From assembly GCA_024644005.1 (NCBI GenBank), contig JAHELU010000012.1, positions 1 to 39,991 of the forward strand: DNA of 39,991 nucleotides, in the 5' to 3' direction. Under the pieces are notes generated by a model, which saw only the letters and a list, made by a program, of their open reading frames with translations, was not told where the DNA came from and did no database searches. The DNA comes from Acidimicrobiales bacterium (lineage in GTDB: Bacteria; Actinomycetota; Acidimicrobiia; Acidimicrobiales; SZUA-35). A program made the position numbers and the translations under genes. Shown here piece after piece: positions 4,308 to 39,507 of the stretch (the first letter of the stretch is position 1; the number at the start of each line of letters is the position of its first letter).

Positions 4308-4640
<333 letters not shown>

Positions 4641-8698: not shown

Positions 8699-10459
8699 TC
8701 AGCTTCCGATTCGTCGTTTCTGCTCGGCGTCGTCCCACGCCGCGAGCGGCTGGTAGGTCGGCACCCAGCCGAGGCCCTTGGTCGCGTCGGACGAGATGAC
8801 GGCCTGCGAGGTGACGACGTCGATGACGGCCGGCGCGTCGGCCAGGGCTCGCTCCAGCGCGCCCGGCAACTCGTCGGCCGAGGTGACACGCTCGCCGTGG
8901 GCCCCGAGGGCGACGGCCATGGTGGCGTAGTCGGAGTCGCGCAGCGTCGTGCCGACCACCCGACCCCCGTAGTTGATCTCCTGGTCGAACCGCTCGATGT
9001 TCCATGCACCATTGTTCGACACGATGAACACGGCCCTGGCCCCATGCCGGACCGCGGTGTCGATCTCCATGGCATTGATCCCGTAGGCGCCGTCACCGGT
9101 GACGCAGATCACCTGCCGGTCGGGGTGGGCCAGCGCTGCGGCGTTGGCGAACGGCACCCCGACCCCGAGGCAGCCGAAGGCGCCGGCGTCGAGGTAGGTC
9201 GAGGTGTCGAGTCCGATGCGGGCGAACGACAGGAAGTCGCCACCGTCGGCGATGCCGATGTAGTCGGGCTCGGCCACCTCCCGGATGGCGGCGAACACCG
9301 CCATCGGGTGCACCCTGTCGTCGTCCCCGGCCGCCGGCACCTCCCGGGCCGCCCCGGCCGCCAGCCGCTCGTCGTGCGCGGCCCGCAGCCCGTCGGCCCA
9401 GGTGGTGTCGATCTCGCCGTTCCCTCCCCGGGCCGCCAGTGCCTCGGTGATCGCTTCGAGTGCCGGCCCGACCGAGGCCAGCAGCTCCGGATCGCCCCGT
9501 CGGTTGTCGATCAGCTCGCCCGCGGTGTCGGCGATTCGCAGGAACCGGGCGTCGCCGAACACGGCCGGCGATCCGAACCCGAGCTGGTAGTCGAGCCGCC
9601 GCCCGAGCGTGATGACCAGATCGGCCTGGGTCATCGCCGCGGCCCGGACCGCCCCGACCACCGACTCGTGGTCGGCCGGCACCAGCCCACGGCTCTCCTG
9701 GGTGTCGAGATAGCGGGCGGCGGTGGCGTCGAGGAACCGCACCAGCTCCTCCGATGCCCCCACCGCACCCCGGCCCGAGATGACCAGCGGCCGCCGGGCC
9801 GCCCGGATCGCCTCGACTGCGGCCGCCACCGAGTCGGGATCCGCAGCCAGGCGCCGCCGGGGCTTGGGTCCGAGCCAGTCGTCGAGCACGAGCTCCGGCG
9901 GCACCGTCACCCGCAGCACGTCGGTCGGGAGCTCGATGTACGAGGGGCCCGGATCGCCCAGGTCGCCATTGGCCCGAGCGATCGCCTCGTCGAGCTCCCG
10001 CACCGCCTGCTCCGGCACCCGGGCCGTCCGGGAGTACCGGGTGATCGGGGCCAGGATGTCGGCGTGGGCGATGTCCTGCAGCGGCCCCATGTTGGCCTGG
10101 GGCCGGGGCGGGCACCCCCCGATCAGCAGCACCGGCACCCGGGCCAGGTGGGCGTTGGCCACGCCGGTCACGCAGTTCGTCACCCCCGGCCCGGCCGTGG
10201 CCAGGCACACGCCGAGCGTGCCGGTCAGCTCGGCGTGGGCGTGGGCCATGTGGACCGCGGCGGCCTCGTGGCGGACGTCGATGATCTCGACTCCGGCCTT
10301 GGCCAGGAAGTCCCAGATCGGCTGAACGTGCCCGCCTTGGAGACCGAATACCCGGTGCACCCCGCGCTGCACGAGTGAGCGGGCCACCCAGGCGGCGACG
10401 CTGTGGTCGTCGTCGTTCAGATCCTCCGGGAGGCTGGGGTCGGGGTTCTTCATGCTCAT
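8699..10459 (-). CDS. ThDP-dependent enzyme (acetolactate synthase / 2-hydroxyacyl-CoA lyase-like)
   Basis: A 586-residue thiamine-diphosphate enzyme with three domains. The N-terminal PYR domain has the catalytic glutamate in [12 protein letters not shown] (E65) and [11 protein letters not shown]. The central domain has [13 protein letters not shown]. The C-terminal PP domain has the metal/ThDP motif [13 protein letters not shown] to VSNN (about 455-483). It resembles large subunits of acetolactate synthase, but there is no small-subunit gene and the neighbour is an acyl-CoA ligase. A lyase or decarboxylase acting on a 2-hydroxy- or 2-oxoacyl-CoA is therefore just as plausible. ATG 10459 has GGAG 11 nt upstream; a GTG at 10471 overlaps the ligase stop by 4 nt and would add four residues. 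Substrate unknown. Confidence 0.8.
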
Positions 10460-10467
10460 GTTCGTGC

Positions 10468-12048
10468 TCACTCCGGTCGACCGCCGTCTACGGGGGTGCG
10501 GTACATCTCGCGCAGCGCTCGGTGCAGTATCTTGCCGGTGGCGTTGCGGGGCATCTCCTCCGGGGTCAGGAACACGATCTCGCGGGGCCGCTTGTAGCCG
10601 GCCAGCCGGTCGGTCGACCAGGCCGCCAGCTCGTCGGCTCGAGGCGACACCCCGGTCCGGGGCACCACGGCGGCCACAACCCGTTCGCTCCACTTCTCGT
10701 CCGGCACCCCGAACACGGCCACGTCGGCCACCTCGGGATGCTCGGCCAGCACCTTCTCCACCTCGGCGGGGTACACGTTCTCCCCGCCGGTCACGATCAT
10801 GTTCTTCTTCCGGTCGAGCAGCCGGATGAACCCCTCCCCGTTGCGCCTGGCGATGTCGCCGACGCTCAGGTAGTCGCCTCGCATGGCCTCGGCCGTCTTC
10901 TCCGGCAGGCGCCAGTAGCCGTCGAACTGGTAGGGGCTGGACGAGAACAGCTCGCCCGGCTCGCCGTCGGGCACCTCGTTGCCGCTGTCGTCGAGTAGCC
11001 GGATCGGGGCCGAGCCCACCACCTCCCGGCCCACGGTGCCCACGTGGTCGAACTGCTCGTCTGGGTGGAGCATCGTCACCCACCCGGCCTCGGTCGACCC
11101 GTAGAGCTCGTAGAGCCCGGAGTTGGGGAACATCTCCATGATCCGGCGCTTGGTCTCGACATACGCGGTGGCCGACGAGACGAGCAGCTTCTCCACCGAC
11201 GACGTGTCGGGCCGTCGGGCCTCGGGGATCTCCAGCATCATCGAGTAGTGGGTCGGGACCAGCGAGGAGAAGGTGGCCCGAGCGAGCTCGGCCAGGCAGA
11301 GCTCCGGGTCGAAGCTGGCCAGGGAGAACACGGTGATCGGGGCCCGCCGGTACAGGAAGCTGACGAAGAAGTAGAGCGAGTTCGCGTGGCACATCGGCAT
11401 CACCAGCAGCCCGACATCGCTCGGGTGGAGCCGGAACTCCAGTCCGGTGACCAGGGCCAGCATCGCCAGGCCCCGGTGGCTGCGGATCGCCCCCTTCGGG
11501 TGGCCGGTGGTGCCCGAGGTGTAGAGCAGGCAGGCGGTGTCATCGGGCCCGACCGCCACGTCGGGCTCGGCCGCCGCACCGCCGGCCAGGAGCGCTTCGT
11601 AGGCCTGGTATCCCGGCGGCGCCGACTCGCTGTTGTCGGGTCCCCCGATGTGGACGTACAGGTCGGCCGGGACCGCCAGCTCCGACCGAACCTCGTCGAC
11701 CGCGCCGACCAGGGCGTCCTCCACGATCAGCGCCGCTGCCTCGGCGTCGTCGACTATGTATGCCACCTCGGCCGGAGTGAGGCGGAAGTTGATGGGGACG
11801 GCGACCAGCCCGGCCTTGGCCGTCGCGGCGTAGATCTCCAGCCACTCCAGCCGGTTGTGGGCGAGCACTGCCACCCGCTGGCCCTTGGTCAATCCCAGAC
11901 CGAGCAGGGCGTTGGCCAACCGGCAGGCCCGCTCGTTCCACGCCCCGTACGTGACCGACCGGACGAGGTCGCGGGCCCCGAAGGCGCCGGGTCGGACCCG
12001 GGCGTGGGCCGAGAGGACTCGACCGACGGTCGGCAGGATCGGGTTCAT
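10468..12048 (-). CDS. Acyl-CoA synthetase / AMP-dependent ligase
   Basis: The 526-residue ANL-superfamily enzyme activates a carboxylic acid via acyl-AMP to the CoA thioester. Motifs in order: the P-loop [13 protein letters not shown] (about 174-186), [11 protein letters not shown], the hinge aspartate region [36 protein letters not shown], and the C-terminal catalytic lysine in [11 protein letters not shown]. This is the usual length for class I fatty/aryl acyl-CoA ligases. ATG 12048 has GAGG 5 nt upstream; the open frame continues further upstream but is not protein-like. It is translationally linked to the ThDP enzyme, which suggests the two act on the same acid. The substrate cannot be read from sequence. 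Confidence 0.88.
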
Positions 12049-12501
12049 CTGGCCTCGACGGTCATCGCCCGGCGGTGGCCGCCTCACCAGGTGGAGCCGG
12101 CCGCAGCCCGCACACGGATCTCGTGCAGGCTCGGTTTCCGGCTGTGCGCTCGGACGGCTGCAGTGAGGTCCAGGCCGACGGGTTTGGCGTACTCGGATCC
12201 TCGGTGGCCACGTCCCGAGGTTCGCATGGCGTTGGCGACGATCGCAAGGCTGGGTCGACGATTGCGCCGGGTGGTGCGCGGCGGAAGAGCTGGTGCGGCG
12301 CCGTAGCAATGATGTTTCACGGACCGCGAGGGCCGGTTCAAGCCCGTGGCGTGAGGCGGCCCGGATCCACCCACCCCCTCGACCGGGGCGAGTCTCGTGC
12401 GGGCAAGGCCCGCCGATAGCCCATAGAACCGGGAGATCCATCGCTGACCATCGACACCGAACCCGGTCGCCAACCGCATCCGACCGTGGTCGCCCATCTG
12501 G
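12049..12501. other. Intergenic stretch without recognisable gene
   Basis: 453 bp between the acyl-CoA ligase start and the ATP-grasp stop. All open frames, on both strands, are Arg/Pro/Ser-rich and lack ribosome sites. It probably contains the promoter of the minus-strand ligase operon. No hairpin terminator with a T run was seen. Confidence 0.5.
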
Positions 12502-13902
12502 TCAGGAGTCTTGCTCCGGCACGGAGATCAGCAGGCCGCCGCCCGGACGGCCGTCCGACGTGTCCTGGGCGACGTTGAGGATGGGACCGGCGGCGGCCCT
12601 GCGCAACGATGGGCCGACCCGATTGCCGTACACGTAGAAGTTGCAGTCCACCAGCTCGGTCTCCCAGGTCGTCTGCCATTCGTCGGCGGGGTCGGCGACC
12701 GGCAGCTCCATCAGCTGCGGAGCAACGTATTCCATGACGATCCACCCTCCCGACATGGCACGGCCGACGGCCCCATCCCAGTCGTGCTGGGTGGCGCTAC
12801 GACCGACGAGCACCCCCTCGCCGTGGCTCCCGATGGCGGGCTTCAGGACGAGGTCGTGTCGGTGCTGGCTCACCCACGGGAGCATGTCGGGGAGCAGTGA
12901 TCCATCGCGGTGATGCGATGGGCCGTCGTGGAGCTCTGCCGTCCACGGCACCATCATCCGGATGGCGGCCTGCTCGCGGGCCGAGAAGAGGCTCTGGGCG
13001 TCGGGGCTCCACAGCACCTCGAAGAGCCACTTCGACCCGAGCAGGCGCCCCACGACGTCGTTCAGCACCACCAGCTCGGCGGGATCCGTTCGAGGGAGGT
13101 GGACGAAGGGCATCTTGTCGAGCCCGTCCGGGTACAAGGGGCCGGTGTTCTTCCAGAGCAGATCGATCCCGTGGCCGTCGAGCACCCAACCCCGCCGGGC
13201 TCGCTCGAGCGAGCGGACGTCAGCGGTTACCACCTCGATCCCGGTCCCATGGCTCCACCGGCGGAAGCACTCGGCGGCTGCGGCGAGCTCCACATCCTTC
13301 ACCTTGTTCCCAGGGTCCCAGGCGATGCCGATCGTCGGCGCGTCGGGCGCCGTCCGGTGTGCCCGGAAGCGCGTCAGCAGCCAGCCCCAGAGCTGCTCCA
13401 GAGAAGTCGGGGATGCCGCCGGCAGCGACAGGCCGAGCTCGCTGGCCAGATCTCGCAGACTGCCGATGGAGAGGTGTTGGTACACCGAGCCCTCGACGTT
13501 GTTGAAGTTGGCCTCGATGACGCGGGGTACGATCTCCTGCCCCTGCCGTTGGAGGAAGGTGTCATAGCGACCCATGAGGTCGGCAGCTCGAGGGGTCCGC
13601 CCGACATCGAGGAGGCGGACCACCTGCGCGTTCTGCAGCGAAGCCAGGACGCGGGCCCGGGATGTCGGCACCTCCAGCGAGCGGGCCAGTGCCTTGTGCA
13701 GCGCGCTCGTCAAGTAGGGGAGGTGGGTCCGAGCCAGCTTCTGGGCCGATGCAGGAGTCTCGTCGATCGTCAGGAAGACGGGGAGCCTCTCGGTCCCCAG
13801 CCGAAAGCCCGATGCCCCCAGCTCGGCCTCCCAGACCGGTTGGTACTCGCGGATGAAGCGCTCACCACCCAACCTCTCGATGCGCTCGATGACAGGGATC
13901 AA
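12502..13902 (-). CDS. Circularly permuted ATP-grasp protein (glutathionylspermidine synthase-like)
   Basis: The 466-residue protein has the features of the permuted ATP-grasp fold: IEANFNNVEGSVYQH (about 128-142), the glycine-rich ATP loop LVLKPAIGSHGEGVLVG (about 355-371), WIVMEYVAP, and a C-terminal strand pair ending YGNRVGPSLRRAAAGPILNVAQ. Such enzymes make amide bonds between a carboxylate and an amine using ATP; the substrates here are unknown. The only usable in-frame start is TTG 13902, with GAGG 8 nt upstream. Just before it, an ATG opens another frame (MTEYAPPELLAPEH) that would join smoothly with a one-base shift, so a frameshift at the 5' end is possible. It stands downstream of the SARP regulator on the same strand, 142 bp away. 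Confidence 0.7.
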   Translation of the reverse strand: MIPVIERIERLGGERFIREYQPVWEAELGASGFRLGTERLPVFLTIDETPASAQKLARTHLPYLTSALHKALARSLEVPTSRARVLASLQNAQVVRLLDVGRTPRAADLMGRYDTFLQRQGQEIVPRVIEANFNNVEGSVYQHLSIGSLRDLASELGLSLPAASPTSLEQLWGWLLTRFRAHRTAPDAPTIGIAWDPGNKVKDVELAAAAECFRRWSHGTGIEVVTADVRSLERARRGWVLDGHGIDLLWKNTGPLYPDGLDKMPFVHLPRTDPAELVVLNDVVGRLLGSKWLFEVLWSPDAQSLFSAREQAAIRMMVPWTAELHDGPSHHRDGSLLPDMLPWVSQHRHDLVLKPAIGSHGEGVLVGRSATQHDWDGAVGRAMSGGWIVMEYVAPQLMELPVADPADEWQTTWETELVDCNFYVYGNRVGPSLRRAAAGPILNVAQDTSDGRPGGGLLISVPEQDS

Positions 13903-14044: not shown

Positions 14045-17000
14045 TCACGGTTTCGGGGACTTTGACCGGCAGCGGCCCGGGATCGACCCCTCTCGAGCCG
14101 TTGCCGGATGCGTCGGACCGTCAGGGTCGGCGGTCGATGCCGGGAACAGGCTGCGGGCGAACGCTGCGGCTTCTTCGACCGACAGCTCCCTGCCCCGCTG
14201 CTGGGCCTCGAGGAACCGCTCTGGCTCGGTGTCCGCCCGTAGCGCACCGAGTAGCCGATCGGATGCCGGTGGCTCCAGCATGCTCGCCCTCTCTCGCGCC
14301 GCGCCGGCCGCTGACACCAGGGTGGTGGCTGCGAGCGCCCTTCCTTCTCGGCCGAGCACCACACCGAGCCCGTCGAGGCACTCGGCCACACCGGCGAAAT
14401 CGCCGACGTCTTGTCGCACCGCTCCTGCGGCCAGGAAGCAGCGCGTCGCCTCGTCGAGCTGCCCGCGTCGAGTCGCAACCTCCCCCAGGTTCTTCGGCGT
14501 CGACGCCGTGCAGCGCGGATCGCCGAGGCGGCGGTACTCGTCCAGCGCATCGCGGTAGTGCTCGGCCGCCGCGTCGAGGCGCCCCTCGAGCAGGTCGATG
14601 TCGGCCAGCGTCGAGCGCACGTGCAGCGCGGCAATGCGGTTCCTCAGGCCGGTCCAGAGCTGGACGCTCTGCTCGCACCAGGCGGCGGCTGCGTCGAGAT
14701 CACCATCGAAGCGGGCGAGGGAACCGAGGTCCCACAACGTCCTGGCCTCGCCGCTCCTGCACCGGCGCCGTCGCCAGTCGGCGAGGCTGGCCTGCAGCAG
14801 CGCTCGGGCCTCGGCGTGCTCCCCTCGCATCATGACCAGCCAGGCGAGGTAGCGCCGAGCCCGATGGAGATAGTGGTCCGGGTCGGCGCGCTCGAAGATC
14901 TCGATGCTCGAGCGCAGGAGGCGCTCGCCCTGGTCCAGCTGGCCGCAGTCGCGGCGGGCCAGCCCCAGCGCGGTCTGAGCCCTTGCGACGCCCACATCGT
15001 CACCCAGCCGGCGGAAGATGGTCAACGCCTGCTCGGCCAGCGGAATCGCCCGCAGCCCCTCGCCGTGATCGGCGGCTGCGTCACCAGCGAGCCAGGCCGC
15101 TCGTGCCCGCCGGAGCGGATCGAGCTCGGGTCTGTCGACGAGCCGCTCCAGCGTGTCGATCAGCTCCGGGACCTGGTAGGTCATCGTCCAGTAGCGATCG
15201 AGGCACACCGCCAGGTCGACCGCGGTGGCCGGGTCCTCCACGCTGGCGAACCGCAGCGCGCTCCACACGTTCGCGTCGTCGGCCTGGACCAGCTCGAGCC
15301 ACGCGAGCTCGTCGGGGCCATCGAGGTGGCGGGCTGCTCGGCCGGCGACCTCGAGGTAGTGGCGGCAGTGGCGTCGCTGGGCGGTGCCGAGCGCATCGCT
15401 CGAGCGGAGGCGCTCGCGGGCGAACTCGCGAAGCGTCTCGAGCAGGCGATACCGAGCACGATGGCCGACGCTCGTCGTCTTCATGACGAGCGACTTGTCC
15501 ACGAGCTCGCTCACGACGGCGAGAACGTCGTCGCTCCCGATGCGTCGGGGCGCGCACACCGCCTCCACCGCCTCCAGGTCGAAGCTCCCGGCGAACACGC
15601 CCATTCGCTCGAAGACCGCCTTGGCGTGATCGGAGAGCAGCTCGTAGCTCCAGGCGATCGCAGCGTCGAGGTTCTCGTGATGCGCCAGCTCGCCTGCCCG
15701 GGCCGGGGCCAGATCGACGCGACGGTCGATCAGGTCGAGGATCTCCTCGAGCTCGACGACGCGCACACAGCTCGCGGCGATCTCGATGGCGAGCGGGAGA
15801 CCGTCGAGACGGGCGCACACGTCTTCGACGACTGCTCGATTGCGGTCGTCGACCCCGAAGCCGGGCGCGACCAGCGATGCTCGCTCGGCGAAGAGCGCCA
15901 CAGCCTCGGCCTCACCCGGGTCTTGGATGGGGGAGTGGAGGGTGAGTGGCGGAATCGGCACGATTCGCTCGCCGGCCACACCGAGTGGCTGGCGGCTGGT
16001 GGCCAGCACCGTGACGCTCGGGCAGGAACGGACCACGCGGCTCGCGAGGTCGGCGGCAGCCTCGACGAGGTGCTCACAGTTGTCGATGACCAGCAGGGTG
16101 GGCCCGAAGTGGGCCAGGGCCCGGACGACGACATCGTCGATCGTCAAGCCGGGCTGCTCGCCCAGGTCGAGCACGCCTGCGACGGTGCGGGCCACCTGGG
16201 CGCCGACGGAGAGCGGCGCCAATTCGACGAACCAGATGCCTCCCTGGTGGTGGGAGGCGACGCTGCGGGCGACTTCCATCGCGAGACGGGTCTTGCCCGT
16301 GCCGCCTGGCCCGGTCAGGGTGACGAACCGGCTCTCGTGCAGCAGCTCGGCCAGCCGTTGGCACTGGTCGCGCCGACCGACGAAGCTCGTGAGCAGGACC
16401 GGCAGGTTGGTCGGTGGGTCTGCCGGCCCGCCCGCCGCTGCCGGGGTCACCGCACCATCGAAGACCTGCCGCTCGAGCTCTTGGAGCTCGGGCCCTGGTT
16501 CGATCCCGAGCTCCTCCCCGAGCCTCGCCCGGACCCGCTGGTAGGCCCGCAGTGCCTCCGCCTGACGGTTCGATCGGCCGAGGGCGAGGATCAGCAGGCG
16601 CCACAGGCCCTCGTGGAGAGGATGGAGCGCAACGAGGTCCTCCAGCTCTCCGACCACCTCCCGGTGGCGGCCCTGCTCGAGCTCCACTTCGAGCCGTTGC
16701 TCCTCGATCGCCACCCGCAGCTCGGCGAGCCGCGCCCGCTCGGCCGATGCGAAGCCGGCATCGATGTCGGCGAGGGGCTCGCCACGCCACTGGTCGGCCG
16801 CCCTCGCGAGCGCATCGCTCGCCTCGGGGAGCCGGCGGGCGGCCCGGGCTCCTCGCGCCCGCTCGACGAGCGCGAGCACGTCGTCGGCGTCGACCACGCA
16901 GTCGCCGATGATCGCGTATCCCCCGTGCCTGCTGACCAGCACCTCGCTGCCGCCGCGATGCAAGACCTTGCGCAGCTCGGACACGTACTTCTGCAAGGTC

Positions 17001-17182
17001 TTCACCGCCGTTGCCGGCGGAGCGCTGTCCCAGACCGCATCGATGAGCGCGTCCGTGGACACCACGCGTCCGGCGTCGACGATCAACCGGGCCAGGACCG
17101 TGCGCTGGCGGGCGCCACCGAGCGGGAGCTGCTGGCCGTCTCGCACGGCCTCGAGGGGACCCAGGATCCGCAGCTCGAGCAA
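14045..17182 (-). CDS. SARP/AfsR-type regulator: BTAD, NB-ARC and TPR domains
   Basis: This 1045-residue transcriptional activator begins with an OmpR-type winged helix (about 17-95, ending VSRHGGYAI), then a bacterial transcriptional activation domain (about 97-243). A STAND ATPase follows, with Walker A GPGGTGKT (291-298), Walker B TLLVIDNCEHL (about 366-376) and ATSRQPLGVAGE. The C-terminal third is helical TPR-like repeats. AfsR proteins use ATP binding and oligomerisation to control DNA binding at direct repeats. The start is TTG 17182, with AGAGGA 8 nt upstream; from it the protein reads MLELRILGPLE, the usual SARP opening. Three 11-bp direct repeats lie 36-71 nt upstream, and the gene is divergent from the DsrE/methyltransferase operon, its likely target together with itself. 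Confidence 0.92.
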   Translation of the reverse strand: MLELRILGPLEAVRDGQQLPLGGARQRTVLARLIVDAGRVVSTDALIDAVWDSAPPATAVKTLQKYVSELRKVLHRGGSEVLVSRHGGYAIIGDCVVDADDVLALVERARGARAARRLPEASDALARAADQWRGEPLADIDAGFASAERARLAELRVAIEEQRLEVELEQGRHREVVGELEDLVALHPLHEGLWRLLILALGRSNRQAEALRAYQRVRARLGEELGIEPGPELQELERQVFDGAVTPAAAGGPADPPTNLPVLLTSFVGRRDQCQRLAELLHESRFVTLTGPGGTGKTRLAMEVARSVASHHQGGIWFVELAPLSVGAQVARTVAGVLDLGEQPGLTIDDVVVRALAHFGPTLLVIDNCEHLVEAAADLASRVVRSCPSVTVLATSRQPLGVAGERIVPIPPLTLHSPIQDPGEAEAVALFAERASLVAPGFGVDDRNRAVVEDVCARLDGLPLAIEIAASCVRVVELEEILDLIDRRVDLAPARAGELAHHENLDAAIAWSYELLSDHAKAVFERMGVFAGSFDLEAVEAVCAPRRIGSDDVLAVVSELVDKSLVMKTTSVGHRARYRLLETLREFARERLRSSDALGTAQRRHCRHYLEVAGRAARHLDGPDELAWLELVQADDANVWSALRFASVEDPATAVDLAVCLDRYWTMTYQVPELIDTLERLVDRPELDPLRRARAAWLAGDAAADHGEGLRAIPLAEQALTIFRRLGDDVGVARAQTALGLARRDCGQLDQGERLLRSSIEIFERADPDHYLHRARRYLAWLVMMRGEHAEARALLQASLADWRRRRCRSGEARTLWDLGSLARFDGDLDAAAAWCEQSVQLWTGLRNRIAALHVRSTLADIDLLEGRLDAAAEHYRDALDEYRRLGDPRCTASTPKNLGEVATRRGQLDEATRCFLAAGAVRQDVGDFAGVAECLDGLGVVLGREGRALAATTLVSAAGAARERASMLEPPASDRLLGALRADTEPERFLEAQQRGRELSVEEAAAFARSLFPASTADPDGPTHPATAREGSIPGRCRSKSPKP

Positions 17183-17217
17183 GCGACCGTCCTCTCACAC
17201 GTGGCTTCTACCGACTC

Positions 17218-17253
17218 CCCACCAGCTTCCCACCAGCTTCCCACCAGCTGGTG
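17218..17253 (-). promoter_or_regulatory. Candidate SARP operator: three 11-bp direct repeats
   Basis: On the minus strand AGCTGGTGGGA is repeated with exact 11-bp spacing, giving heptamers AGCTGGT separated by 4 bp; the last repeat ends GGGG. After the third heptamer come 8 bp and then GGTAGAAG, a possible -10. Heptameric direct repeats spaced 11 bp and set 8 bp from the -10 are the known binding layout of SARP activators. The outermost copy also lies in the 12-bp palindrome CACCAGCTGGTG (17242-17253). The site sits in the 97-bp gap between the SARP gene and the divergent operon. Binding is inferred. Confidence 0.65.
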
Positions 17254-17279
17254 CCAACGTCGACCCTACCGATGAGTAG

Positions 17280-17375
17280 ATGCGACTGGAGACGCCGATG
17301 GACGAGGAGACGCCAGTGGTCGACGGATTGGTCGACGCGCTGGTGGACGAGGACCGCAAGGTCCTGTGGCTGTGA
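17280..17375 (+). CDS. 31-residue possible leader/small ORF
   Basis: ATG 17280 to TGA 17375 encodes a short acidic peptide (METP, DEETPVVDGLVDALVDED, ending KVLWL). Its acidic, regular composition is unlike shadow frames. It ends 11 nt before the first DsrE gene, and the GGAGGA ribosome site of that gene lies between the two. An internal ATG (17298) is an alternative start. The upstream ribosome site is weak. It may be a small operon member or a fragment. Confidence 0.35.
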   Translation: MRLETPMDEETPVVDGLVDALVDEDRKVLWL

Positions 17376-17386
17376 TCGGAGGAGAC

Positions 17387-17785
17387 ATGACCAAGACCCT
17401 GACGATGGTGTTGATGGATCCGCCCTACGAGACCGAGACGACGACGACCGCACTGCGCATCGCCGATGCCGCGATGGGCAAGGATCATCGGGTCCAGGTC
17501 TTCGCCTATGAGGGCGCGGTCAACCTGACCATGGCCGAGCAGGCCCCGCACCCCAATCCGGTCAAGGGAACGTCGGTGGAGGAGGAATCGCATCCGACGA
17601 CGAAGGACTGGATCGAGGCGCTCTATGCGGCTCACGGCGATCAGCTCGATTGGATCAACTGCGGGCTCTGTGTCGACGAGCGCGGCGCAGGCCGCACGAT
17701 CCACGGGCCCCGGCGAGGTGGACCGGGTGACTTCGTGTCGTGGATGGAGGCATCGGATCAGACGCTCGTCATCCCGACACGGTGA
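17387..17785 (+). CDS. DsrE-family protein
   Basis: The 132-residue product starts at ATG 17387 behind GGAGGAGAC. It has the DsrE opening strand and loop (LTMVLMDPPYETETTTTALRIADAA), a second strand HRVQVFAYEGAVNL, and a CGLC pair (residues 92-95) in DWINCGLCVDERG. DsrE/TusD-type proteins carry sulfur on cysteines in relay pathways or act as small oligomeric scaffolds. The Cys pair near the end of the third strand is compatible with thiol chemistry. It is the first sizeable gene of the operon divergent from the SARP regulator. Confidence 0.75.
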   Translation: MTKTLTMVLMDPPYETETTTTALRIADAAMGKDHRVQVFAYEGAVNLTMAEQAPHPNPVKGTSVEEESHPTTKDWIEALYAAHGDQLDWINCGLCVDERGAGRTIHGPRRGGPGDFVSWMEASDQTLVIPTR

Positions 17786-17819
17786 ACGACATGAAGGCAC
17801 GACGAAGAAGGAGCGAACG

Positions 17820-18203
17820 ATGACCAGTGTGTTGAGCGTGGTTTCCACCGGCTACCGGGCGACGATCGAGGAGCAGGACGACACGATCCTGTGGTTCACC
17901 GCCATGTGCAGCAGCGCAGGGGTCGACGTCTCGGTACTGCTCGAGGGCAATGCCGTCAACTATCTCGTGACCGGCCACGATGTCGGCGGCCTGCGCTTCG
18001 GCGAGCTCGAGGTCGAGCATCCCCCGGTTCTCGACCGGGATGTCGCTGATCTCGTTGCCAAGGGGGTGAAGATCCACTACATCCGTGAGGACCTGGATGC
18101 GCTCGGTGTCGCCGAGGATCGACTACTCGATGGGGTCACGCCGGTGAAGCGCGCCGAGTTGCCCGTGCTGTTCTCGAACCATGGTCAGATCTGGCGGTGG
18201 TGA
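17820..18203 (+). CDS. Second DsrE/F-like protein
   Basis: The 127-residue product starts at ATG 17820, with AAGGAG 8 nt upstream. It shows a cysteine-containing first half (FTAMCSSAGVDVSVLLEGNAVNYLVTG) typical of DsrE/F/H folds, and a C-terminal part (VKIHYIREDLDALGVAEDRLLDGV) resembling the helix-strand end of TusC/DsrF-like proteins. It follows the first DsrE gene by 34 nt and overlaps the methyltransferase start by 23 nt. The two DsrE-like proteins probably form a hetero-oligomer, as DsrE/F/H proteins do; this is inferred from pairing. Confidence 0.65.
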   Translation: MTSVLSVVSTGYRATIEEQDDTILWFTAMCSSAGVDVSVLLEGNAVNYLVTGHDVGGLRFGELEVEHPPVLDRDVADLVAKGVKIHYIREDLDALGVAEDRLLDGVTPVKRAELPVLFSNHGQIWRW

Positions 18204-18963
18204 GGAGCGCGGGTACACGACCCGGGCCCAGGCCGACCGGATCGGTGAGCTGGCCGGCCTCGGCCCCGGCGTCCGGGTGCTCGACATCGGCACCGGGGCG
18301 GGCTGGCCCGGGCTCTACCTGGCGGCGAAGACCGGATGCGAGGTGGTGCTGTCGGACGTGGCGCACGCGGGGCTGGTGGAGGCGGCTCACCGAGCTCGGT
18401 CCCGGAGGATCACCGGCCACGTCGGGGCGATGATCTCGAGCGGGTCGGCGCCCGGAGCTCGCTCGGCGTCGATCGACGTCGTGTTGCACGGCGACGTGCT
18501 CTGCTGCCTCGAGGACAAGGAGGCCATGCTGGAGGAGACCCACCGCGTGCTGCGATCCGGTGGCCTGACCGTCTACACCGCGATCCACACCGCACCGGGT
18601 CTCGACCGTGCCATCCACCGCCGTGCGGTCACAGTCGGTCCGCCGTTCTGCGACGCTGTGGCGTCCTATGACGTGCTGACCGAGCGAGCGGGCTTCGTCG
18701 ACGTGGAGGTGCACGACGTCACCGCCGAGTACCTCGCGGTCGCACGGCGCAAGCTCGAGGCCACCGAGCGGCTCGCCCCGCAGCTGAGCCAGTGGTCGGG
18801 GCAGGCCGAGGTGGCCGAGCGCATCCGGCGACGAAGCGATGCGGTGGAGGCGATCGAGGCCGGGTTGCTGCGCCGAAGCATGGTTCTCGGACGGCGGCAG
18901 GCTGTTCCGCCCAGCACGGCGGCAGGCTGTTCCGCCCTGCTCAGCCGATCGAGCCCTCGGTGA
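18181..18963 (+). CDS. Class I SAM-dependent methyltransferase
   Basis: The 260-residue protein has motif I VLDIGTGAGWPG (about 33-44), the acidic end of strand 2 in EVVLSDVA, motif IV-like IDVVLHGDVLCCLED and the post-motif HRVLRSGGLTVYTAIH. Start ATG 18181 lies inside the end of the upstream DsrE-like gene, suggesting coupled translation. The substrate is unknown. A 25-bp-period duplication near the 3' end (18891-18937) changes the reading frame relative to itself. The last 20 or so residues (AVPPSTAAGCSALLSRSSPR) are therefore probably a recent, disordered tail. Confidence 0.8.
   Translation: MVRSGGGEERGYTTRAQADRIGELAGLGPGVRVLDIGTGAGWPGLYLAAKTGCEVVLSDVAHAGLVEAAHRARSRRITGHVGAMISSGSAPGARSASIDVVLHGDVLCCLEDKEAMLEETHRVLRSGGLTVYTAIHTAPGLDRAIHRRAVTVGPPFCDAVASYDVLTERAGFVDVEVHDVTAEYLAVARRKLEATERLAPQLSQWSGQAEVAERIRRRSDAVEAIEAGLLRRSMVLGRRQAVPPSTAAGCSALLSRSSPR
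18891..18937. repeat. Direct repeat 22 bp, 25-bp period
   Basis: 18891-18912 and 18916-18937 are identical (beginning ACGGCGGCAGG, ending TTCCGCCC). They lie inside the 3' end of the methyltransferase gene. Because the period is not a multiple of three, the two copies are read in different frames. Confidence 0.9.
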
Positions 18964-19114
18964 CCGGCGCCGCGCTCGGATCGTGACTCCAAGAGACTGA
19001 CGTCCGGCCCTACGGATCGCTCGTGATGACGCCCATGATGAGGGTGGCATCGACGAAGGGACTCCACGATCCGGACCTGTGCGAGCCGGATTGCCCTCGA
19101 GCTCGGAGGGCCTC

Positions 19115-22100
19115 ATGGCTGATGTGTTCATCTCCTACTCACGACAGGATCGAGCGGTGGTCGGGCGACTCGATGCCGCTCTCCAGCGAGCGGGCATCGA
19201 TACATGGGTCGACTACGAGGACATTCCGCCGTCGTATGACTGGCTCCAACAGATCAAGGAGGGCATCGACGAAGCGTCTGCGGTCGTCTGTGTCCTGAGC
19301 GACGACTACCTCGACTCGGAGATATGCACCATCGAGTCCGGCTACGCGGAAGAGGCCGGCAAGCGAATCATCCCCGTGGTCATCGAAGACCTGGAGCGAC
19401 GGTCGATGCCGACTTCGGTGTCCACACCCAACTGGATCCTCGTCGAGTCGACCGACGACCTGGACGAAACCGTCCAGCAGCTCTCGGTCGCGATCACGGC
19501 GGACCCGGACTGGACCAGGCTCCACACGCGCTTGGTGATCCGTGCCAGGGATTGGGACGGGGCGGGCAGGCGCCGACACGGTGTGCTGCGGGGCCGTGAG
19601 CTGCGAGCTGCGGCCGAGGCGATCGACGTGGCTCGCCCGGCCGGCCAGCCGCAGCCGACCGATCTCCAGCGGCAGTTCGTGGCCCATAGCCAGCACGTTG
19701 CCTCCACCCGGCGGGCGATGGGGGTTGGCACGGCGATCCTGGCTGCGGCCGGCCTCCTGGTCGCCGGTGTGCTCGTGCTCGTCGAGCGCCAGCGCGCCCA
19801 ACGGAGTGAAGCGGTGGCGGACTCGCAGGAGCTCGCAGCGCTGGCGGTCGAACACCTGGAGGACGATCATGACCTCGCCCTCCTGCTGGCGGTCGAGGCG
19901 GCGCAGACCGACCTCAGCCGCGAGGCGTACGGCACGCTGATCCAGGCGGCGCTCCATCTCCCGAACATCGAGCATCACCTCCACGGCTTCGATGGACAGA
20001 TTCGCGGCGCCGCGTTCGTGGCGGGCGGTCGACGTCTGGTCGCAGCCGGCGAGGGCGGCCGGCTCATGGCGTGGTCGGTCGACGACGGTGAACCGGTCGC
20101 CGACGTCAGGGGCGGCGTGCTCTCGATCCACGCGGTCGCCGGCTCCCCTGACGGCGAGCGCCTCGCAACCGGGGACGACTCGGGGAACGTGATCCTGTGG
20201 GACGTCGAGACGCTCGAGTCTCGGCACGTGCGCACTGCAGACGGGAGTGGCGGCGTTCGCAGCCTGGCATTCTCACCTGACGGACACCTCCTGGCGAAGG
20301 GTGGCGCCGACGGCGTCGTCGAGATCTGGGCGACAGACGACCTCGACGCACCGCTCGACAGCGTGCTCGCGCAGACGACCGAGATCCGGGATCTGGCGTG
20401 GTCACCGGACGGCGGCCGGCTGGCGGTCGTCCATGGTCGAGGCGTGGACATCCTCGATCACGCCGCAGGCTACTCGCTCGAGCACTCCATCGAGATCGGC
20501 GAGCCGTCGGTCGCGTCCTGGGAGGCCGACAGCTCCGCCCTGGCGGTCGGCGGTCGCGACGGGTACGTCCACCTGTACGCCGTGGGCGGTCGGGACGGGG
20601 CCGACGACGACTTGATCTGGCGGTCCACCAGCCGGCACGACGGCTGGGTCACCGCGATCGATCACGGACCGGACGGCAAGGTCCGATCGGCCGATTCGCA
20701 CGGCACCGTCCGCGTGTGGAACCCACCGGGCGATACGGATGCCGAGGCCGTGTGGACGGCACACGCGGGCCGGATCACGGCGCTCGTGCACTCCGATGGA
20801 CGATTCGCAACCACCGGCGTCGACGGCACCACCGTCCTCTGGACCACTGGCCGCAGCCCCGGGTTGTTCGAGCCGATCGTCGACTACGACACGCTGACTG
20901 GACTGGCGGGCGAGCCGTGGCAGTCGATGACCGCCGCGAGCCTGTTCGACGGGAGCATCGTCACCCACGACGAAGCGGCTTCGGAGACGATCGCCGTGAT
21001 CGACACCGTCGACGGCAAGATCCGAGATCTCGTGCTCGCACGGGAAGGTACCGTCGTCATCGCCGTCGACGACGCCGGGAGGATCATGCAGGCGGCCGTC
21101 GACAGCACCGGGGGCGGGCCGGTCCAGTTGTCCCAGGGGTCCTCGCCGGTCGGCGCCATCACCACCGATCGCGACGGTCGCCTCGTGTCGTGGGTCAGCG
21201 ATGATGGATCGGTCACACTGTACGACGCAGCCAGCGGATCGGTCCTGGCACGGGCCGAGACCGAGCTCTCCGACGCCGTCGACATGTCGCTGGATCTCGT
21301 CCGCAACGAGCTGGCGATCGTTGGTGCCAGCGAGCGGGTGACGCGTCTCGCCCTCGACGACCTGGCGCCGCTCCCACCGCTCGGGAGCGTCCACGAGGAC
21401 TGGATCGATGCGGTGGCCTACTCGCCGGACGGGTCCGCGCTCGTGACCGGTGGGTCGGGAGAGTTGGTGGTGTGGGAGCTCGATACCGACGCGCACCGCG
21501 TGCTGCCCGACTTGCATGGGGCCCGCATCATGGCGATGGACTTCAGCCTCGACGGTTCGCTGCTGGCGACCGGCGACGCGGCCGGCACCGTGATCCTCTG
21601 GGCCGCTGATGCGGGCTGGCAGCCGCTCGGCGCCCGGATCGGACTCCCCGAGATGTCGTCGGGCGTCGAGGAGATCGTCTTCTTGCCAAGGGGTTCCCTG
21701 ATCCTGGCCGGGGGTGGACTGGCGACGGTCGTCAGCCTCGAGCCCCTCGCTGTGCAAGACGTGCTCTGCGACGTCGCAAACCGTGCGCTCACCGACGAGG
21801 AGAAGGAGCGATTCGGGATCCGGGCCGACCGGGACGACGCATGCGCCACGGCCGTGAGCTCCCCGGCGGCAACCCGATCTGCTCCATCCGACGGCACGAC
21901 CCTCGATGGGGAGGTGTCACCGGCTGCGCCGGCGCCCCACGTCGAGGCGACGCCGGGCGGCCAACCTGTCCCGATCGTCCTGACGGGCCACACCGACTGG
22001 GTGTTCTCGGTTGCCTGGTCGCCGAGCGGTTCGCTCCTCGCATCGGCCAGCGGCGACCGCTCGGTCGTGCTGTGGGACACCACGAGCGGCGAGCCCATCG

Positions 22101-22855
22101 GTCCGTCGCTAACCGGTCACGACGACGAGGTGAGGACGGTCGCCTGGTCACCGGATGGCATGACCCTGGCGTCGGCGGGCGGCGAGACGATCGTGCTGTG
22201 GGACGCCGCAGGCGGCGACCCGATCGGCGCGCCGCTCACCGGCCACGGGGGCAGGATCAATGCTGTGGCGTGGTCACCTGACGGCACGCGCCTGGCGAGC
22301 GCGAGCGGGGACGGCACGGTCCGGATCTGGGATGCTTCGGGCCGCGAATCGGCGCGCGGATCCCCGAGCGACCCCGCCGCCGCGGTCCGCTCGGTCGCCT
22401 GGTCTCCCGACGGCCGGCGACTCGCCGTCGTGACGATGGACGGGACCATTGCGCTCTGGGACAGCCCCGACGTCGAGCTCGACCCACGACTCGTCATCGG
22501 ATCGGAGGCTTGGACGCTCGCGTGGTCGCCCGACAGCACCCGCCTGGCGAGTGGTGGTCAGGACAAGACCATCCGACTCTGGAATGCCGATACCGGCGAC
22601 CCGATCGGCGAGCCGTTGGTCGGTCACGATCTGTGGGTGAACGCGGTCGCCTGGTCGCCGGGCGGCGATCGGCTCGCCAGCGTCAGCGATGACGGCACCG
22701 TGCGCCTCTGGGACCCGGCGTCCGGTGAGCAGATCGGGGTCGAGCTCATCGGACACACCGACTCGGCGCTGGCGATCGCCTGGTCGCCCGACGGGCAGCG
22801 CGTCGCCTCGGCGGGAGCGGACGGAACCATCCGGATCTGGACGGTCACGTCCTGA
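19115..22855 (+). CDS. TIR domain - transmembrane - double WD40 protein
   Basis: The 1246-residue protein starts at ATG 19115 behind GGAGGG. Residues 1-140 form a TIR domain: DVFISYSRQDRAVVGRLDAAL, then YLDSEICTIESGYAEE, where E74 fits the catalytic NADase glutamate. One membrane helix follows (about 203-225, TAILAAAGLLVAGVLVLV), then a helical segment (SQELAALAVEHLEDDHDLALLLAVEAA) common in membrane WD40 proteins. A first, irregular set of WD40 repeats ends in the family's usual closing motif (DVLCDVANRALTDEEKERFGI). A Pro/Ala linker leads to a second, very regular propeller with seven VAWSPDG-type repeats. Bacterial TIR domains cleave NAD+ or make signal nucleotides in anti-phage defence, and WD40 propellers sense ligands. 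A cytoplasmic sensor-effector at the membrane is my inference. Confidence 0.9.
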   Translation: MADVFISYSRQDRAVVGRLDAALQRAGIDTWVDYEDIPPSYDWLQQIKEGIDEASAVVCVLSDDYLDSEICTIESGYAEEAGKRIIPVVIEDLERRSMPTSVSTPNWILVESTDDLDETVQQLSVAITADPDWTRLHTRLVIRARDWDGAGRRRHGVLRGRELRAAAEAIDVARPAGQPQPTDLQRQFVAHSQHVASTRRAMGVGTAILAAAGLLVAGVLVLVERQRAQRSEAVADSQELAALAVEHLEDDHDLALLLAVEAAQTDLSREAYGTLIQAALHLPNIEHHLHGFDGQIRGAAFVAGGRRLVAAGEGGRLMAWSVDDGEPVADVRGGVLSIHAVAGSPDGERLATGDDSGNVILWDVETLESRHVRTADGSGGVRSLAFSPDGHLLAKGGADGVVEIWATDDLDAPLDSVLAQTTEIRDLAWSPDGGRLAVVHGRGVDILDHAAGYSLEHSIEIGEPSVASWEADSSALAVGGRDGYVHLYAVGGRDGADDDLIWRSTSRHDGWVTAIDHGPDGKVRSADSHGTVRVWNPPGDTDAEAVWTAHAGRITALVHSDGRFATTGVDGTTVLWTTGRSPGLFEPIVDYDTLTGLAGEPWQSMTAASLFDGSIVTHDEAASETIAVIDTVDGKIRDLVLAREGTVVIAVDDAGRIMQAAVDSTGGGPVQLSQGSSPVGAITTDRDGRLVSWVSDDGSVTLYDAASGSVLARAETELSDAVDMSLDLVRNELAIVGASERVTRLALDDLAPLPPLGSVHEDWIDAVAYSPDGSALVTGGSGELVVWELDTDAHRVLPDLHGARIMAMDFSLDGSLLATGDAAGTVILWAADAGWQPLGARIGLPEMSSGVEEIVFLPRGSLILAGGGLATVVSLEPLAVQDVLCDVANRALTDEEKERFGIRADRDDACATAVSSPAATRSAPSDGTTLDGEVSPAAPAPHVEATPGGQPVPIVLTGHTDWVFSVAWSPSGSLLASASGDRSVVLWDTTSGEPIGPSLTGHDDEVRTVAWSPDGMTLASAGGETIVLWDAAGGDPIGAPLTGHGGRINAVAWSPDGTRLASASGDGTVRIWDASGRESARGSPSDPAAAVRSVAWSPDGRRLAVVTMDGTIALWDSPDVELDPRLVIGSEAWTLAWSPDSTRLASGGQDKTIRLWNADTGDPIGEPLVGHDLWVNAVAWSPGGDRLASVSDDGTVRLWDPASGEQIGVELIGHTDSALAIAWSPDGQRVASAGADGTIRIWTVTS

Positions 22856-37323: not shown

Positions 37324-39507
37324 TCAGCACTCGGGCAGCGTGAGGACGTCGCCCGGATCGATGGTGTTGGGGCCGGGGAGGCTGTTGGCGGTGGTGAGCT
37401 TCTCGACGTAGTCGGCGCTCGTCGCCTCGGGGCAGACCCGGGCCGCCAGGCCGCTCAGGCTCGTCGTCGGGTCGACGACCGCTGCGACCGTCACCGACAC
37501 CCGGATCGAGTGCCCGGACCGGCGATCGGTGACGATCACGTCGACGTCGTGCCGCGGACCCGCCTCGAGGATCGCCTCGCCGCTGACCCTCGTCGTGAGG
37601 TTCCCCGCGTCGTCGACGCCGAACAGCTGGCCGCTCCTCGCCCCCTGGGCGAACTCGACCGCGTCGCTCGGCGCGCCCAGCACGGTCAGGGAGGCGACCT
37701 GCACGCCGGGCTCGCTGGTCGAGCGCAGGACGTCGTACTCGATCTTGCGGACCACCGCGATCGTGGCGACGGCTTCGAGGTCTGGCCGTTCCAGCGTGCG
37801 GTAGGTGAAGGCGTCGGCCTCGGACTTGTCGCGGTGGCGATACCTGAACGCCCCGCTCGTTGAGTTCTCGTCGAGCGAGCCCCACTCGGGACGGGCCGTG
37901 ATCTCGACGCTGATGCCGGCCTCTTCCTGCTCCGGGGTGAGCAGGCCGTCCCCGGCCCCCACCTCGAGGACCCCTCCGTCCTCGACGAGGTAGTGACGAG
38001 GCGAGGCTTGCGCCAGGGCAGCGGTGGCCGGCGCCATGCCACCGGCGTCCACCGCCACCCGCACGACCAGGGAGGTCGACTTCCCGTCCGGGGCCGATTC
38101 GATGCGGACCGTGATCAGCCGCTCTGGTGAGTCCGCTGCGAGCGCGCTGTTGAGCGACAGCACGCCCGTGCGCTCGTCGATCTCGAAGTGGTTGCTCGAA
38201 TCGCCCTCGATCGAGTAGCTGGGTCGGCGCCAGGACTCCGGGGCCTGCACCCGGCCGATCCGACTGCCGCTCTGGGTGTCGGCGGCGACCAGGTAGGTCA
38301 GCGCCGGCTCGATGTCGATCGTCTCATCGTCGAGCGCGATGTGCACGGGGATGTGGTCCTCGGCAGGCCCCCGCAGTCGCACGCAGAACTGCGGCCGTGG
38401 CCGGTTCTCGCCGCCGACGAGGAGCTCGTCGTCGAGCACCTTGGCGATGGTGACGACCCCGGTGTGACGATCGATCGCGAAGTGGCTGGCCAAGCCCTTC
38501 GGGTACTCCCGGCAGGAGCCCACGTCGGCGATGTCGTACTCGATCGACCCGGCATCCGGATGGCTCGTGGTCACCCGACCGACGACCGAGCCGAACGGCT
38601 CGTCGGTCGACACCAGGAAGGCCACGTAGGGCTGCTCCTCGGACGACGGTCGCGGCTCCTGCCGCTCGGGCGCGCAGGTGAACCGGCCGTCGGCGTCGGG
38701 GGCGGCCGGCGGGCCCTCGGGAACGGACTCGTCCTGGCCGTCGCCGGGACAGCGGGTCTCCCGGCTCAGCACGACGGGATCGTCCTCGGGCTCGACGAAG
38801 CCCACCACCCCGGTCAGGTCGGCCCCGCTGAGATTGGCCCCGCCCAGTTTGGCTTCGGTGAGATTGGCCGACCGCAGGCTCGCTTGGGTCAGATCGGCTT
38901 TTTCGAGGTTGGCGCCTTCGAGGTTGGTCGCCCTGAGGCGGGCGCCGCGCAGCTCGGCGTTGCTCAGGTTCGCTTCGGTGAGATCGGCGAACGAGAAGTC
39001 GAACACATCGGTCTCGGTCCGGTTCAGCGCCATGCCGCTCAGATCGAATTCCCGCATGTCCTGCGTGCGGAAGCTGAACTGCTCCCGTCGGTTCATGGTG
39101 AGCCGGGTCTCGGCCACGCGCCGGGCGGTGTCGCGCTCGACCAGCGCGCTGGTCAGCACGGTGTTCAGCGCGAAGGCCGCACCGGCGATGATGAGCCCGC
39201 TGAGCAGGGCGACGCCGATCTCCTTGGCCGACGAATCCTCGGAGATGAAGATCACCAGCCACAGCGCGATCCAGAAGACCACCACCACGATCAGCAACGA
39301 GATGCGCAGGACCTCGTTGTCGAGCAGGGCGAAGCCGACGACGCTGACGACGGCGAGCGTGCCGAGAGCAGCGGCCAGCGTCCGGCCTGCGCCCTCGTTC
39401 CTGAACCCGAGCTTGTCGATGAGCCCTCTTCGCGACTTCTCTTCTAACGGCTCTGACGGCTCTGACGGCTCTGACGGCTCTGACGGCTCGGACGGCTCGG
39501 TGACCAT
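37324..39507 (-). CDS. Membrane protein with pentapeptide repeats, cadherin-like modules and LysM-like tail
   Basis: The 727-residue protein has an N-terminal tract of EPS repeats and three membrane helices at about 45-125 (LAVVSVVGFALL, ISLLIVVVVFWIALWLVIFI, LLSGLIIAGAAFAL). About 18 pentapeptide repeats of A(D/N)LxxA type follow (about 150-240; ANLSNAELRGARLRATNLEG). Two or three cadherin-like segments come next (HFAIDRHTGVVTIAKVLDDE, HFEIDERTGVLSLNSALAA). The end (LTTANSLPGPNTIDPGDVLTLPEC) resembles a LysM motif. Three helices would put the repeats outside or inside depending on topology. The cadherin and LysM-like parts favour outside, facing the cell wall. Function unknown. Confidence 0.75.
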   Translation of the reverse strand: MVTEPSEPSEPSEPSEPSEPLEEKSRRGLIDKLGFRNEGAGRTLAAALGTLAVVSVVGFALLDNEVLRISLLIVVVVFWIALWLVIFISEDSSAKEIGVALLSGLIIAGAAFALNTVLTSALVERDTARRVAETRLTMNRREQFSFRTQDMREFDLSGMALNRTETDVFDFSFADLTEANLSNAELRGARLRATNLEGANLEKADLTQASLRSANLTEAKLGGANLSGADLTGVVGFVEPEDDPVVLSRETRCPGDGQDESVPEGPPAAPDADGRFTCAPERQEPRPSSEEQPYVAFLVSTDEPFGSVVGRVTTSHPDAGSIEYDIADVGSCREYPKGLASHFAIDRHTGVVTIAKVLDDELLVGGENRPRPQFCVRLRGPAEDHIPVHIALDDETIDIEPALTYLVAADTQSGSRIGRVQAPESWRRPSYSIEGDSSNHFEIDERTGVLSLNSALAADSPERLITVRIESAPDGKSTSLVVRVAVDAGGMAPATAALAQASPRHYLVEDGGVLEVGAGDGLLTPEQEEAGISVEITARPEWGSLDENSTSGAFRYRHRDKSEADAFTYRTLERPDLEAVATIAVVRKIEYDVLRSTSEPGVQVASLTVLGAPSDAVEFAQGARSGQLFGVDDAGNLTTRVSGEAILEAGPRHDVDVIVTDRRSGHSIRVSVTVAAVVDPTTSLSGLAARVCPEATSADYVEKLTTANSLPGPNTIDPGDVLTLPEC
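39449..39502 (-). repeat. 9-bp tandem repeat encoding Glu-Pro-Ser
   Basis: Six consecutive 9-bp units (GGCTCTGAC four times, then GGCTCGGAC, GGCTCGGTG on the plus strand) encode the EPS tract at the extreme N-terminus of the membrane protein. Copy-number change would keep the frame. Confidence 0.9.

Follow-up and report, generated by a model that had tools for sequence, protein, structure and literature searches.

An array of 11-bp direct repeats upstream of a large SARP gene in an Acidimicrobiales bacterium is probably the operator of the regulator's own promoter

The window analysed here is a stretch of 39,991 nucleotides from an Acidimicrobiales bacterium (contig JAHELU010000012.1). On its minus strand, positions 14045–17182 encode a large SARP of the AfsR type, 1045 amino acids in length, with a winged helix, a BTAD domain, a STAND ATPase and TPR repeats. 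The winged helix and BTAD portions that characterise the N-terminus of large SARPs are matched by Trans_reg_C (1e-8) and BTAD (1e-38), and the STAND ATPase and TPR portions of the C-terminus by AAA_16/NB-ARC, near the cut-offs, and TPR_12 (1e-21). The best match among solved structures is AfsR, which aligns with residues 3–882 (E 2e-50). The start codon is a TTG at 17182, with a probable ribosome-binding site, GAGAGGACGG, ahead of it at 17187–17196 on the minus strand. Eight BTAD genes are present in the genome. Downstream of the SARP gene, on the same strand (8699–13902, minus), is a frame of 466 residues with no confident Pfam match and a weak ATP-grasp hint (E 0.11), followed by frames that by eye are AMP-forming ligase-like and thiamine-diphosphate enzyme-like; these are possibly a small biosynthetic set. 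In the divergent direction lies a plus-strand operon with a DsrE-like pair and a methyltransferase gene (17387–18963). Also on the plus strand, positions 19079–22855 encode a protein of 1258 residues that combines a TIR domain with many WD40 repeats, an architecture that recalls signalling or defence proteins.

The repeats are situated just upstream of the SARP gene, between it and the divergent operon, as had been described in an initial reading of the sequence alone (hereafter, the sequence-only reading). On the plus strand, CCCACCAGCT begins at 17218, 17229 and 17240, giving three exact 10-bp copies with a period of 11 bp. Read on the minus strand from 17249 to 17218, the unit is AGCTGGTGGG, repeated three times at an exact 11-bp period: copy 1 at 17240–17249, copy 2 at 17229–17238 and copy 3 at 17218–17227. 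The array in this direction is AGCTGGTGGGA AGCTGGTGGGA AGCTGGTGGGG, then AGTCGGT. The three AGCTGGT heptamers reported at 11-bp spacing are thus found on the minus strand; of the claim that the repeats are exact over 11 bp, the period and the 10-bp identity stand, but the eleventh base is T, T and G, so that identity over 11 bp extends to just two of the three copies. AGTCGGT, at 17210–17216 on the minus strand, is a degenerate fourth copy with two mismatches. The 12-bp palindrome described for the outer copy, CACCAGCTGGTG, is present at 17242–17253, where copy 1 and the adjoining bases form it. Since AGCT is its own reverse complement, just four more matching bases on one side are needed for the palindrome, which has no sign of function.

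The array contains more than the two direct repeats of about 7–9 bp, spaced 11 bp (or 22 bp) start to start, by which a SARP operator is recognised. With up to three mismatches allowed, the triple heptamer pattern matches the window at this site only and is found in 0 of 100 dinucleotide shuffles. An exact 7-mer triple at period 11 is likewise absent from every shuffle and occurs in the window here only; the remaining exact 7-mer triples have periods of 9, 15 and 18, all divisible by three, as repeats within coding sequence should be. Exact tandem repeats with a 9-bp period, probably intra-coding, are seen at 39447–39474 and 4544–4558. The repeats near the SARP gene are confirmed as a real observation.

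A candidate −10 element for the SARP gene, TAGAAG, placed by analogy with the AfsR geometry, is located at 17205–17210 on the minus strand, where it is overlapped by the fourth repeat copy, and a transcription start is predicted near 17198. TAGAAG is without the final T of a good −10, and a consensus promoter scan of 17150–17420 returned no promoter, did not pick up TAGAAG and indicated a poor −35. SARP repeats have been described as 11 or 22 bp apart, with the 3' repeat 8 bp from the −10 (PMC10936776; also PMC4393881). The sequence-only reading had proposed the same 8-bp distance for the AGCTGGT heptamers; the hexamer found there is GGTAGA, and the gap from AGCTGGT to the predicted −10, TAGAAG, is 10 bp. 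The distance of 8 bp applies when the unit is taken as the 9-bp AGCTGGTGG, and the register of the AfsR box is kept. The starts of copies 2 and 3 are 28 and 17 nt from TAGAAG. If, as we assume for this comparison, the −10 corresponds to −12 to −7, these distances give the AfsR register, with repeats starting at −40 and −29, where the two 11-bp repeats begin in the AfsR–RNA polymerase structure and overlap a poor −35 (PMC10936776). Copies 2 and 3 would accordingly take the places of the upstream and downstream AfsR repeats, and copy 1 would be expected at about −51 to −42. Overall, the proposed SARP-site layout of 11-bp direct repeats beside a weak −10 agrees with that published (PMC4393881, PMC10936776).

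Comparison with characterised systems brings out both the likeness and the differences. The afs box, through which AfsR binds the afsS promoter, likewise comprises 11-bp direct repeats, one per winged helix, which cover the −35 position ahead of a weak −10, with equal distances from the repeat starts to the assumed −10; the domain order of AfsR and of this SARP is identical (PMC10936776). The afs box unit is, however, CGTT(T/C)AT in two copies, whereas here AGCTGGT is present in three to four, and the afs box precedes a target gene whereas this site precedes the gene of the regulator itself. The AfsR contact residues W74, P79, S91, R94 and K95 are unchanged in the SARP, whereas the base-reading T88 and R92 are replaced by K and E, residues that are rare at these positions in the family (2/123 and 3/123). 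This replacement would be in line with a different heptamer. OtcR sites in the oxytetracycline promoters are also 11-bp direct repeats, with the downstream repeat 8 bp from the −10, but they differ in sequence from this site and OtcR is a SARP that acts on biosynthetic genes (PMC4393881).

The nearest homologues of the SARP, L254 (genome G512, 40%) and L002 (G089, 37%), share the rare K/E helix. The promoter of L254 reads CGGTGGTTCCG-GAGCAGCAGAG-AACGGG-TAGACG and that of L002 is similar, with CGGTGGT in both located 28 nt ahead of TAGACG, which occupies the same place as TAGAAG. The repeats had been expected to recur in orthologous loci. No close orthologue of the SARP gene was found, and these two homologues retain one half-site (5/7 to AGCTGGT) and the −10 in register, while the triple repeat is absent.

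The upstream regions of BTAD genes retrieved with the SARP protein were then used as a family set, with thresholds (7-mers, 17/21 matches) that were set after seeing this case and with all periods scored alike. Of 123 such regions, 13 carry triples of similar heptamers at 11 bp, where shuffles predict 0.7 (at most 3), and 19 carry identical heptamer pairs at 11 bp, where 1.9 would be expected; 22-bp pairs are also in excess. With the upstream regions of other genes from these loci as controls, 11-bp pairs are found in 18/122 BTAD upstream regions versus 4/214 controls (Fisher 8e-6), and triples in 12 versus 6 (p 0.01). An independent set of the 43 closest homologues gave 12 pairs and 6 triples at 11 bp and 0–2 at any other period. 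In all of these homologue sets the promoters are not fully independent of one another, and start codons were taken from the alignment. Enrichment was weak in 60 further BTAD genes, where 3 triples and 5 pairs at 11 bp compare with 3 and 4 at period 14. In two sets the repeated words favour the regulator's own strand (CTGA by 9 to 0 and GCTG by 8 to 1), and GCTGGTG of this site has the same polarity. The 11-bp layout is strongly enriched before homologous regulator genes.

The repeat unit also covaries with the protein. In 37 repeat-bearing promoters, similar 11-bp units tend to go with more nearly identical recognition helices (Mantel r 0.27, p 0.0002), and the correlation persists once identity of the rest of the N-terminus is removed (partial Mantel r 0.24, p 0.0002). 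Helices of the ARATLQTHVS type pair with TCGGTG, RHALQVHVS and WHAIHVYVS with GCTCAA, VLQS(H/N)(L/I)S with TGCAAGC, and several NALQ or NGLQ helices with GCTGAC. Such matching between a repeat unit and the recognition helix encoded downstream is what self-recognition would predict, and the covariation points to it; common descent of promoter and gene is another possible source, which the partial test removes only in part. As a separate observation, class-specific 11-bp repeats lie upstream of loci L279, L293, L298 and L289, of L261, L263, L266 and L270, and of L264 and L295, and their repeats (GCTCAAC, GTCGGTG and TGCAAGC) agree with the recognition-helix classes of their large SARPs.

A genome search for AGCTGGT repeats had been put forward as a route to the regulon. 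In the 83%-complete genome (G000), however, this is the sole occurrence of the exact double site. Allowing up to two mismatches gives 61 matches in G000, fewer than for the reversed control (231), and of the three one-mismatch sites two are inside long open frames, while the placement of the third is not clear. In a search of 99 genomes for the site in relatives, just one genome besides G000 had a match, elsewhere and imperfect, and plasmids and viral contigs returned none. The SARP either acts at this site alone or has targets with more degenerate sites.

Taken together, the layout, the AfsR-type gene, the family enrichment at 11 bp and the repeat following the recognition helix make autoregulation, as the sequence-only reading suggested, the best-supported interpretation. 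We estimate a probability of about 0.7 that the repeats act as operator for the promoter of the SARP gene itself and serve in an AfsR-like activation of that gene. Side-by-side SARP protomers would bind the AGCTGGT units one helical turn apart, cover the position of the missing −35 and hold RNA polymerase on the weak −10 TAGAAG, as AfsR does at afsS, and the regulator would most likely activate its own gene from about 17198. Copies 1 and 4 may add affinity or cooperativity. We infer the binding, its positive sign and the start site from these comparisons. Counting against an own-promoter operator are the missing triple in the nearest homologues, the weak 60-gene sample and the imperfect TAGAAG. 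By analogy, PimR is an explicit counter-example, being a large SARP with three heptamers in its own intergenic region that is not autoregulated (PMC3367932).

The SARP could also bind the repeats and repress its own gene. Since the degenerate fourth copy and the −10 overlap, filling of all the sites could shut off the promoter, and copies 3 and 4, overlapping the promoter core, would then provide negative feedback. We regard this as unlikely, as copies 2 and 3 are exactly at the AfsR activating positions, the poor −35 resembles those of activator-dependent promoters, and the SARPs in the cited papers are activators. A very improbable binder is another OmpR-type regulator, such as a PhoP-like response regulator, a kind that likewise uses 11-bp direct repeats; AfsR and PhoP do share sites at afsS (PMC10972967), but a common binder should give one motif everywhere, whereas the repeat sequences differ gene by gene, following each recognition helix, and the site is unique in the 83%-complete genome. 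Least plausible of all is a neutral, functionless tandem repeat produced by slippage. The near-perfect head-to-tail copies and the further short tandem repeats in the window would suit such an origin, but the array has the position and period of a SARP site, and homologous genes, unlike control genes, show an enrichment of period 11 upstream. A chance tandem repeat is rejected on the same family-wide evidence.

That the repeats mainly serve the divergent DsrE/methyltransferase operon, or both genes, is quite unlikely, although their place between divergent genes and the palindromic copy readable from the plus side would allow it. So would the PimR operator in the pimR–pimM intergenic region, which likewise has three heptamers with 4-bp spacers, a large SARP gene and a divergent neighbour, and through which PimR regulates that neighbour and not itself; the PimR site, however, is 55 nt upstream of the pimM −35, whereas the present repeats lie directly against the −10 of the SARP gene (PMC3367932). 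On the plus side no −10 is found 8–10 bp past the repeats, the first intact gene is 134 bp from them, and in the family the CTGA/GCTG repeats are almost solely on the regulator's strand, all of which speaks against such a role; the suggestion that the site is read in both directions is not supported either. Moreover, the first gene of the operon looks truncated. A 31-codon frame at 17280–17375 (plus) resembles the end of a DsrE/DsrH-like gene; the match to the relatives' gene (VDGLVDALVDEDRKVLW) is weak but in the same place in two relatives, G049 (L159) and G062 (L160), where an intact gene of about 110 codons lies just before the same DsrE gene. Its missing 5' part was not recognised elsewhere in the window. 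The DsrE-like gene at 17387 has homologues (75% and 68%) in only these two of the other relatives searched, and at E 1e-20 in no other genome of a 396-genome phylum sample, a rarity suggesting horizontal spread. Neither G049 nor G062 has a BTAD match, nor was the methyltransferase found next to the DsrE gene in either. Given the remnant here, and the intact gene without BTAD in the relatives, the SARP gene and repeats appear to abut the truncation breakpoint of the first DsrE-like gene, a position that speaks against an ancient divergent control region common to both sides. Control of the operon by the repeats, also suggested at the outset, was not borne out and is weakly supported.

Taken alone, the site would be an ordinary operator for a known type of regulator, and it is the comparative result that could matter. 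We give an even chance to the broader proposition that many large BTAD/STAND regulators of actinobacteria and their relatives are self-controlled via 11-bp repeats in their own promoters that co-evolve with the recognition helix. In the literature searched, the coverage of which was incomplete, no description was found of repeats at the regulator's own promoter as a rule that holds for large SARPs in general. If the proposition is true, each promoter would reveal the DNA code of its regulator, and the targets of uncharacterised SARPs would become predictable. This could provide a cheap readout of the binding motif, and hence of candidate targets, for many large SARPs that are still uncharacterised, including some that guard silent biosynthetic clusters.
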